Shown here: positions 8,891 through 45,077 of the stretch, piece by piece
Position numbering within the stretch: position 1 is the first letter of the stretch
Layout: every line of letters begins with the position of its first letter
Origin: Streptomyces sp. NBC_01298
GTDB lineage: Bacteria > Actinomycetota > Actinomycetes > Streptomycetales > Streptomycetaceae
Assembly (NCBI RefSeq): GCF_035978755.1
Contig: NZ_CP108414.1
Location: forward strand, 3,658,001-3,722,000
Length of the DNA stretch: 64,000 nucleotides
Direction: 5' to 3'
Translations under genes and position numbers: made by a program
The notes under the pieces: generated by a model
Database searches by the model: none
What the model saw: only the letters and a program-made list of their open reading frames with translations
What the model was told of the DNA's origin: nothing

Positions 8891-8902
8891 CTACGCGCGT
8901 AG
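8891..8902. promoter_or_regulatory. Nucleoside-regulon operator CTACGCGCGTAG, copy 1 (PNP)
   Basis: A 12-base perfect palindrome 25 bases before the PNP start. It is followed by a second short hairpin (GAAGAGCG/CGCTCTTC, 8905-8924). TACGCT at 8915-8920 is placed as a -10 element would be for a transcript starting at or next to the GTG, so the operator would cover the -35 region. Identical or near-identical copies precede five other nucleoside genes in this window. Confidence 0.8.
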
Positions 8903-8927
8903 GCGAAGAGCGGCTACGCTCTTCCGC

Positions 8928-9734
8928 GTGAACGCATCTGTTACCGACCCCTTCGCCGCCGCCGACGCCGCCGCCGCCCGCCTGCGCGAGCTCACCGGCG
9001 CCGAGACCCACGATGTCGCCCTCGTGATGGGCTCCGGCTGGGCCCCCGCCGCGGAGGCGCTCGGCGCGCCCGAGGCCGAGTTCCCGGTCACCGAGCTGCC
9101 CGGCTTCCCGCCCCCCGCCGTCGAGGGCCACGGCGGCAAGATCCGCTCGTACAAGATCGGCGAGAAGCGCGCGCTGCTCTTCCTCGGCCGGACCCACTAC
9201 TACGAGGGCCGCGGCGTCGCCGCCGTGGCCCACGGCGTGCGCACGGCCGTCGCCGCCGGCTGCAAGACCATCGTCCTGACCAACGGCTGCGGTGGCCTGC
9301 GCGAGGGCATGAAGCCCGGCCAGCCGGTCCTGATCAGCGACCACCTCAACCTCACGGCCACCTCGCCGATCGTCGGCGCGAACTTCGTGGACCTGACCGA
9401 CCTGTACTCGCCGCGCCTGCGCGCGATGTGCAAGGAGATCGACGAGACCCTCGAAGAGGGCGTCTACGTGCAGTTCCCCGGCCCGCACTACGAGACCCCG
9501 GCCGAGATCAACATGATCCGCGTCATGGGCGCCGACCTGGTCGGCATGTCCACCGTGCTCGAGGCCATCGCCGCCCGCGAGGCCGGCGCCGAGGTGCTCG
9601 GCATCTCGCTGGTCACCAACCTGGCGGCGGGCCTCTCCGGCGAGCCGCTGAACCACGAAGAGGTGCTCCAGGCGGGCCGCGACTCGGCCTCGCGCATGGG
9701 CAAGCTGCTGACCCAGGTCCTCGCCCGGATCTGA
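8928..9734 (+). CDS. Purine nucleoside phosphorylase
   Basis: Cytoplasmic trimeric-type purine nucleoside phosphorylase that splits inosine, guanosine and their deoxy forms with phosphate into base and (deoxy)ribose-1-phosphate. Conserved parts are VALVMGSGWAPAAEAL near the start, FLGRTHYYEGRGVAAV (phosphate/ribose site), TNGCGGLREGMKPGQPVLISDH, and the purine site VQFPGPHYETPAEINMIR followed by GADLVGMSTV. 268 residues, normal. GTG 8928 is used; no ribosome site is obvious, so the mRNA may be leaderless. The mutase gene follows 30 bases later, so the sugar-1-phosphate product feeds the next enzyme. Confidence 0.95.
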   Translation: MNASVTDPFAAADAAAARLRELTGAETHDVALVMGSGWAPAAEALGAPEAEFPVTELPGFPPPAVEGHGGKIRSYKIGEKRALLFLGRTHYYEGRGVAAVAHGVRTAVAAGCKTIVLTNGCGGLREGMKPGQPVLISDHLNLTATSPIVGANFVDLTDLYSPRLRAMCKEIDETLEEGVYVQFPGPHYETPAEINMIRVMGADLVGMSTVLEAIAAREAGAEVLGISLVTNLAAGLSGEPLNHEEVLQAGRDSASRMGKLLTQVLARI

Positions 9735-9764
9735 TCGAGCGACCCGACCGACCGACGAGAGGTA

Positions 9765-43908: not shown

Positions 43909-43939
43909 GTATCACGTGTGCAGCGAGTCGGACGGCACC

Positions 43940-45004
43940 TTACGGTGCGGTCTTGACCTGGATCTTCTTGGCGATGATGTCGGCCTTCGCCTTGTCGACC
44001 GCGGCGACGAGCTCCGTCATTTCCTTGTACTTCGGGTTGGAGTCGGCCAGGCCGACGCCGTCCTTGTCGAGGCCGTAGCGGACCTCACCGGACTCCGGCT
44101 TGCCGTCCTTGACCGACTTGATCAGGTTGTAGACGGAGTCGGAGACGTCCTTGGTGACCGAGGTCAGGATGAAGTCCTTGTACTTCGCCAGACCGGCCTG
44201 GTTGTACTGGTCCGAGTCGACGCCGATGGACCACTTGCCCTTGGCGGAGGCGGCCTCGATGGCACCCGAGCCGGCCAGACCGGCGGCCGAGTAGATCACG
44301 TCGGCGCCCTTGTCGAGCTGGCCCTCGGCCGCGGCCTTGCCCAGGTCGGGCTTGGCGAAGCCGTCGAAGTTCGGCGGCTGGGTCAGGTACTGGGTGAGCA
44401 CCTTGGCGTTCGGGTTGGTGTCCTTGACGCCCTGGGCGAAGCCCGCCTCGAACTTCTTGATCAGCGGAACCTCGACACCGCCGATGAAGCCGACCGTGCC
44501 GGTCTTGGACGCCTTGGCGGCGGCGACGCCGGCCAGGTAGGAGCCCTGCTCCTCGTTGAAGACGAGGTTGGCGATGTTCTTCGCCTGCACCGAGGTGTCG
44601 TCGATGATGCCGAACGTGGTGTTCGGGAACTTCTCGGCGACCTTCTTGATGGCCGGCGCGTAGGCGAAGCCGACGCCGATGACCGGGTTGTTGCCCTTGC
44701 GGGCCAGCTCGGTGAGGCGCTGGACCTTGTCGGCCTCGCCCTCGCCGTCGGTGGGCTCCGCCTGGGCGCCCTTGATCTTGAGGTCCTTCTCAGCCTTGGC
44801 GAGGCCTTCGTAGGCGGCGTCGTTGAACGACTGGTCGCCTCGGCCACCGATGTCGTACGCGATGGCGGCGGACCCCTCCGAGGAGGAGGACGAGGAGGCG
44901 GACGAAGACGAGTCCGAGGACTTCTTACCGCCACAGGCGGTGGCCGAGAGGGCCAGCGCGGCGGACGCGAGGCCCACGGTGGCGATCCTGGTGATCCGGC
45001 GCAA
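43940..45004 (-). CDS. BMP-family substrate-binding lipoprotein of nucleoside ABC transporter
   Basis: 354 residues. Signal peptide with lipobox LSATAC (Cys24) and a Ser-rich linker; then the Bmp/PnrA fold: AIAYDIGGRGDQSFNDAAYE (nucleoside-binding Asp and Phe), PVIGVGFAYAPAIKKVAEKF, GTVGFIGGVEVPLIKKFEAG and SIGVDSDQYNQAG. PnrA-type proteins bind purine and pyrimidine nucleosides. TTG 45004 follows GAAGGAG. Expressed from its own operator-bearing promoter just upstream of the ABC genes. Confidence 0.93.
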   Translation of the reverse strand: MRRITRIATVGLASAALALSATACGGKKSSDSSSSASSSSSSEGSAAIAYDIGGRGDQSFNDAAYEGLAKAEKDLKIKGAQAEPTDGEGEADKVQRLTELARKGNNPVIGVGFAYAPAIKKVAEKFPNTTFGIIDDTSVQAKNIANLVFNEEQGSYLAGVAAAKASKTGTVGFIGGVEVPLIKKFEAGFAQGVKDTNPNAKVLTQYLTQPPNFDGFAKPDLGKAAAEGQLDKGADVIYSAAGLAGSGAIEAASAKGKWSIGVDSDQYNQAGLAKYKDFILTSVTKDVSDSVYNLIKSVKDGKPESGEVRYGLDKDGVGLADSNPKYKEMTELVAAVDKAKADIIAKKIQVKTAP

Positions 45005-45065
45005 GGGGAGGCTCCTTCAAAACCTGACCGAAGCGCCACGACCGGCGCTGGTTTCGCCGAGATCG

Positions 45066-45077
45066 TAACGCGCGTAG
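45066..45077. promoter_or_regulatory. Nucleoside-regulon operator, copy 6 (bmp), imperfect
   Basis: TAACGCGCGTAG; the central ACGCGCGT is intact, and on the minus strand the site reads CTACGCGCGTTA. TTTAAC upstream and TACGAT downstream, 16 bases apart, could be -35 and -10, which puts the operator in the spacer. It lies 61 bases before the TTG start, leaving room for a leader, unlike the other copies. Confidence 0.68.

Follow-up and report, generated by a model that had tools for sequence, protein, structure and literature searches.

A conserved palindrome at nucleoside genes of Streptomycetaceae and its candidate LacI-family repressor

In Escherichia coli, deoC, deoA, cdd and nucleoside uptake are under shared repressors, CytR and DeoR, and PurR, which controls purine synthesis, has a palindromic operator with a central CG. 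Nucleosides set free as mycelium lyses, together with the purine supply, bear on development and antibiotic production. UriR of Corynebacterium and the groups AdeR and HpxR are LacI-family proteins that regulate the use of nucleosides and are described as local regulators (PMC4052901). ScnR1/GvmR of Streptomyces caniferus is likewise a Streptomyces LacI-family protein and is tied to a purine nucleoside product; the passages concerned give its operator as RTCATWCGYATGAY / RTSATACGHATRAY, not CTACGCGCGTAG, and name SCO1642 as the Streptomyces coelicolor relative (PMC12292694). For nucleoside salvage in Streptomycetaceae, no published operator or regulator was found in the open-licence part of PMC, where the exact 12-mer CTACGCGCGTAG matched two papers, one on DNA structures in the PDB and one on GapR.

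Here, we describe, for the principal family of antibiotic producers, a putative operator of nucleoside salvage, the genes that it would serve and a candidate for its regulator. The pair of operator and LacI-family protein would add to the LacI-type nucleoside and purine repressors already known. The protein shares the LacI fold with E. coli PurR (E 5.8e-45 to a PDB PurR chain), but the operator is different and the predicted regulon is mainly one of nucleoside catabolism. In contrast to the CytR/DeoR arrangement, a single operator here would serve the corresponding genes together with purSQL and a 5'-nucleotidase gene. The protein did not reach any of the NCBIfam cut-offs for PurR (189.9 against 501 bits), CytR (179.2 against 436), RbsR (203.8 against 382) or UriR (120.9 against 550).

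Palindrome copies at nucleoside genes

The window is the whole stretch of 64,000 nucleotides of Streptomyces sp. NBC_01298 that was analysed. Its relevant features are listed below; all promoter boxes are predicted.

5532..6482, minus strand: DeoR-family regulator; candidate regulator, not supported; promoter without a site
8891..8902: putative operator before PNP, exact copy; lies over the -35 position, with the -10 TACGCT at 8915-8920
8928..9734, plus strand: purine nucleoside phosphorylase-type gene (PNP), named from its translation; GTG start at 8928
9765..11438, plus strand: phosphomutase-type gene downstream of PNP; model match below equivalog cut-offs
17518..18954, minus strand: aldehyde dehydrogenase gene downstream of deoC; below equivalog cut-offs
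18960..19922, minus strand: deoC, deoxyribose-phosphate aldolase; TIGR00126 above cut-off, start codon predicted
19942..19953: putative operator before deoC, exact copy; 1 nt from the -10 TATGCT (19940-19935, minus strand)
28449..29597, minus strand: add, adenosine deaminase; NF006847 above cut-off
29614..29625: putative operator before add, exact copy; 4 nt from the -10 TAGAGT (29609-29604, minus strand), leaderless ATG predicted
37893..39194, minus strand: deoA, thymidine phosphorylase; NF004490 above cut-off, likely start 39170
39185..39196: one-mismatch copy before deoA; poorly conserved
39270..39680, minus strand: cdd, cytidine deaminase; curated model above cut-off
40921..42036, minus strand: ABC transporter permease; below equivalog cut-offs
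42033..43748, minus strand: ABC transporter ATPase, operon leader; below equivalog cut-offs, start predicted from homologue alignments
43792..43803: putative operator before the ABC-cdd-deoA operon, exact copy; lies over the -35 position that belongs to the -10 GATACT (43776-43771, minus strand)
43940..45004, minus strand: BMP/PnrA-type substrate-binding protein; below equivalog cut-off
45066..45077: putative operator before BMP, CTACGCGCGTTA when read in gene orientation; the TA at its end is the first part of the -10 TACGAT (45067-45062, minus strand)

A preliminary description of this DNA had reported six copies of the palindrome, each at a nucleoside gene, and this observation is confirmed. 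All six copies are present, four of them exact, that at 39185 with one mismatch and that at 45066 with two, and curated models above cut-off for deoC, add, deoA and cdd bear out the identity of the neighbouring genes. The core of CTACGCGCGTAG reads [T]CTACNCGNGTAG[A]. The excess over chance that had been claimed is also seen: among 42 different palindromic 12-mers in the window, CTACGCGCGTAG occurs four times, one other occurs twice and the remainder once, and no other thus exceeds two copies. The count at up to two mismatches (nine, against a shuffle mean of 4.33, with nine reached in two of 100 shuffles) is weak by itself. Throughout the 9.7-Mb genome there are four exact copies, all four inside the window and each upstream of a nucleoside gene, and two occurrences of the reversed control pattern; the motif is not common at arbitrary positions of this genome.

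Conservation, promoter position and probable further members

Each of the 37 genomes in a genus draw, our own included, had three to six exact copies of CTACGCGCGTAG, and three of 24 other genomes had one. A family draw gave at least one exact copy in 199 of 200 genomes, with zero to three occurrences of the control pattern per genome; in the one genome without, G069, these genes still have degenerate copies. In a class draw, an exact copy was found in 10 of 268 genomes outside the genus, and nine of these 10 had a single copy. Ten genomes of other genera of the family were selected through the location of their DeoR gene and independently of the motif. For genes inside the fetched stretch, a site with at most two mismatches preceded PNP in 10/10, deoC in 9/9 and add in 8/8. 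Drift in these sites is mostly central (CTACACGCGTAG, CTACTCGCGTAG and CTACGCGTGTAG), and the central CG, a feature of the palindromic operators of the LacI family, is retained in the listed site variants of PNP, deoC, add and purS. No site with at most two mismatches was found upstream of the control genes DeoR, NQO, PMM, ALDH, Cdd, MFS, HK and AmidoH (13-34 genomes each). The expectation that the motif would be conserved upstream of the orthologs in related species thus held inside the family, and failed outside it for add, which lacked a site with at most two mismatches in 24/24 outgroup genomes.

The individual copies differ in how well they are kept. The copy before deoA is present with at most two mismatches in only three of 16 genomes. 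The 3-kb loci L016-L045 and L066-L095 were chosen for holding an exact copy, so the site and geometry counts for PNP, add, the ATPase and BMP are inflated. Among these counts, the deviating BMP form CTACGCGCGTTA is retained in 26 of 29 genomes, and the ATPase gene had no site upstream of the match in nine of 29. In two of these nine, G000 and G026, the method overlooked the site, which lies inside the aligned stretch; the remaining seven all belong to other genera and have none upstream of the match. The purS and 5'-nucleotidase sets, fetched by protein, and the other-genera set, fetched by DeoR position, are free of this bias.

The position of the site relative to a -10-like TANNNT box is also conserved. 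The box lies, within one nt, 1 nt after the site at deoC (18/18) and, in the inflated sets, 4 nt after it at add (26/26) and 12 nt after it at PNP (26/34, the eight exceptions all from other genera). At purS it lies 14 nt after the site in 19/19. At BMP, the TA of the box comes from the conserved TTA end of the site (29 of 32 records, again an inflated count), and the end of the 5'-nucleotidase site is part of a -35-like TTGAC in 17/18. The PNP and add transcripts appear to be leaderless. Placement over the predicted -35 and -10 boxes is what occlusion by a repressor would predict, which supports the repressor-like arrangement proposed earlier; occlusion is less clear in the eight of 34 genomes in which the PNP site is not 12 nt from TANNNT.

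Outside the window, our genome has 11 one-mismatch sites, and five of them precede or probably precede genes for a CN hydrolase, purSQL, two 5'-nucleotidases and a xanthine/uracil permease; the site of the second 5'-nucleotidase is inside a called ORF. The other five for which a locus was fetched, so that ten of the 11 were placed, lie within ORFs of other function (four sites; L005, L008, L010 and L014) or within an unannotated ORF (L009). The purSQL copy is CTACCCGCGTAG, and the 5'-nucleotidase copy is CTACGCGCGTTG. When purS loci were fetched by protein, the site was found in 19/19 same-genus genomes (18 with one mismatch and one with two) and in 0/11 outgroup loci. The 5'-nucleotidase fetched in the same way had the site at 18/18 full-length same-genus matches and none at a partial second match (G012) or at the sole outgroup match (G037); G003 had no match at threshold. 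In five genomes (L065, L200, L201, L205 and L206), a perfect site stands at an additional adenosine deaminase gene with 62-63% identity to add, and perfect sites fetched from other genomes also stand at unrelated genes (L196, L197, L198, L202, L204 and L210). The nucleoside regulon outlined in the preliminary description is supported by the family-wide conservation and is extended, with purSQL and the 5'-nucleotidase gene as probable members beyond the cluster.

A LacI-family candidate regulator

Based on the conservation and position of the sites, the co-localisation of a LacI-type gene with the palindrome in other bacteria and the presence of an ortholog, we propose, with a probability of roughly 0.8, that CTACGCGCGTAG is the operator of a LacI-family repressor, the SCO4158 ortholog, for nucleoside and purine genes. 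Binding, repression, the dimeric mode and the ligand are predicted. A LacI dimer would occupy the -35 or -10 boxes at PNP, deoC and add, at the operons of BMP and ABC-cdd-deoA, and at purSQL and a 5'-nucleotidase gene. The bound protein would block RNA polymerase, and a nucleoside-derived or purine ligand would release or strengthen it. Against this proposal, purSQL, which serves synthesis, is hard to fit beside catabolic genes under one simple ligand logic, the site in the promoter of the LacI gene is weak, and that gene is far (1.3 Mb) from the cluster.

When named genomes were scanned for the 14-mer TCTACGCGCGTAGA, at least 119 loci were obtained. Among the matches listed, the LacI helix GTS.AVVSYV is present in 38 of 119 such loci (0.92 Mb), many of which are from Enterobacterales and which are not independent, whereas it is present in two of 320 other loci (2.19 Mb), namely L193, itself fetched because of its sites, and L320. 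In the matches listed, the helix is mostly 1-2 kb from the site and lies within 161 nt of it in four loci (L348, L393, L402 and L411). The other 81 of the 119 loci are without the helix signature, and two of them, among the matches listed, still match the LacI protein. The 8-kb stretches of the 38 signature loci hold, among the matches listed, an MFS transporter (31/38), a nucleoside hydrolase (5/38) or a PfkB protein (3/38). In one Arthrobacter locus, the site stands at the head of an operon with, in this order, a PfkB kinase (Pfam), the LacI-family protein and transporter-like and nucleoside-hydrolase-like genes, the last two recognised by translation.

In Enterobacterales and Pseudomonas loci such as L325, L326 and L331, TCTACGCGCGTAGA stands ahead of an MFS gene that is followed by a gene of the same LacI subfamily. 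In Bifidobacterium aemilianum (L374, 6203-6277), the site occurs twice, 61 bp apart, ahead of an MFS gene, and the LacI protein is again of this type. In L320, from the outgroup G332, the same-helix LacI adjoins a distant adenosine deaminase paralogue (43%), and this locus has no site with at most two mismatches.

We searched 16 genomes with the Arthrobacter LacI protein. All 11 Streptomycetaceae genomes gave one clear best match with the same helix (E 1.9e-58 to 1.2e-67). Among the five outgroups, G333 likewise had one clear best match with this helix, G037 had no match, and G041, G044 and G302 had nine weaker ones (best 7e-49); six of these were accompanied by loci, and the helix was found in none of the six. 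In the genome of our strain, the gene is at G000:C1:5019346-5020368 on the minus strand (L448:1408-2430), about 8.4 kb from the 5'-nucleotidase site, and is downstream of an OmpR-type gene, which its PDB matches suggest to be glnR-like. Its product has an N-terminal LacI helix-turn-helix (PF00356) and a PBP-like ligand domain (PF13377/PF00532), both via the identical P0003, and matches LacI-family chains in the PDB over nearly the whole length. Where sources name the 120 of 1032 homologues listed, they use generic LacI-family or HTH-type designations, or the name CcpA. In S. coelicolor, SCO4158 lies downstream of glnR, which it might regulate according to one suggestion in the passages concerned (PMC9739823). 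Judged by position, our LacI gene is the ortholog of SCO4158. SCO4158 is also said, in the title of a 2012 paper, to affect antibiotic pigments. The literature passages seen assign no regulon to this conserved SCO4158-type LacI, and those from expression and proteome papers give no nucleoside role for either SCO4158 or SCO4920, presumably the S. coelicolor counterpart of the DeoR protein in the window.

Autoregulation is frequent among LacI-family proteins without being universal. The promoter of the LacI gene itself has a half-site, CGCGTAG, at the -10 position in eight of 11 genomes, with the other half degenerate (two or three mismatches); the half-site is missing in G061, G064 and G069. 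Genome G333, of family f20, has three exact copies of the palindrome and a LacI with the same helix. The copies are about 14 and 17 kb from the LacI gene or 1.9 Mb away and do not stand at nucleoside genes, and G333 gives weak support to the link between LacI and the site.

The Streptomycetaceae proteins carry His in 11/11 at the place where the relatives (seven aligned sequences covering that stretch) have an Arg before xxGW (xxGF in G333), and a four-residue insertion is found next to this His. We take the Arg to be the ring-binding Arg, R197 of LacI. A wider reading, to which we would give somewhat less than even odds, is that the Streptomycetaceae turned a widespread LacI-type operon regulator into a genome-wide repressor of the purine economy with a rebuilt ligand pocket. 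Elsewhere such a regulator adjoins MFS, ribokinase-like and nucleoside-hydrolase genes, and in the Streptomycetaceae one operator would couple the scavenging of nucleotides and nucleosides with purine synthesis by purSQL. On this wider reading, the ligand would differ from that of the relatives because of the Arg-to-His change and the insertion.

Other candidate regulators

The assignment of the site to the SCO4158-type LacI rests on association, and another regulator might read the site instead. We consider this unlikely, as the palindrome is strongly associated with one LacI helix in both Actinobacteria and Proteobacteria and a small XRE protein encoded beside two sites fitted poorly as the other regulator.

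Further candidates were considered and set aside. The small XRE protein, encoded next to a HAD hydrolase gene in L199 and L208, has no match in G069 and G070, is matched in 14 of 17 outgroups, and has a one-mismatch site in only one of its 30 loci. The AfsQ1 site is a GTNAC repeat and differs from the palindrome, which speaks against the AfsQ1-like regulator of the cluster (11508-15281). A LuxR-like gene at 30724-31902 is present in 0/15 family clusters. ScnR1/GvmR has a different operator in the passages describing it (PMC12292694).

The DeoR-family protein at 5532-6482 was the candidate named in the preliminary description, and as a repressor it would sense (deoxy)ribose phosphates. It has the HTH_DeoR and DeoRC domains (window 5535-6482) and is present in 15/15 compared family clusters; at E <= 1e-50 it is found in 26/26 family genomes and 0/15 f2/f3 outgroups, and the helix region at its N-terminus hardly varies among the family sequences. 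Nevertheless, we now regard this assignment as very improbable. Its promoter had been noted to lack a clear copy, and indeed has no site with at most two mismatches in 18/18 genomes. The relatives in other families are 49-69% identical and have the same SEVTVRRD-type helix, and 20/20 of their loci lack an exact CTAC-N4-GTAG. In 12 genomes of family f19, each with a DeoR relative, no site was found at add. The motif co-occurs with the DeoR relative inside the order and does not do so with the f19/f30 and other relatives of the class. Since the relatives in other families are without the motif, the DeoR candidate is not supported. Of four loci of such relatives, L126 has galactosidase-like and galactofuranose-transporter-like genes, L128 has a galactosidase-like gene and L130 has a gene resembling aldose epimerases; none of these reached a curated cut-off, and the single L127 protein that was searched had no match. 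Several relatives elsewhere in the class adjoin sugar-type ABC ATPases. SCO4920 centres a co-expression module with regulators including bldN, and the word nucleoside is absent from the main text of that report as far as it was available (PMC3224704). The DeoR protein looks like a regulator with a different job, and a regulator gene nearest to a regulon need not control that regulon.

It is barely conceivable that the copies arose by chance or serve a structural purpose and play no part in regulation, given that their place and promoter overlap are conserved across genera with none at control genes, even though CTACGCGCGTAG is a perfect palindrome and 53 of 125 sites in the TCTACGCGCGTAGA-fetched loci (among the matches listed) are inside called ORFs.

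Some minor observations concern the same loci. Around the DeoR gene (window 5532-6700), the first 60 residues of the protein show almost no variation among the family sequences shown, and about 70 bp before the GTG start look strongly conserved, without the motif. At L199 (4544) and L208 (4171), perfect sites precede a HAD-type phosphatase gene in two genomes; the counterpart in our genome, the locus around the neighbouring XRE gene, has no site with at most two mismatches. Positions 11508-15281 of the window hold sensor kinase and ECF sigma genes in an order that, we presume, resembles afsQ2-afsQ1-sigQ. These AfsQ1/AfsQ2/SigQ-like genes are found inside the regulon cluster in 15/15 compared genomes.
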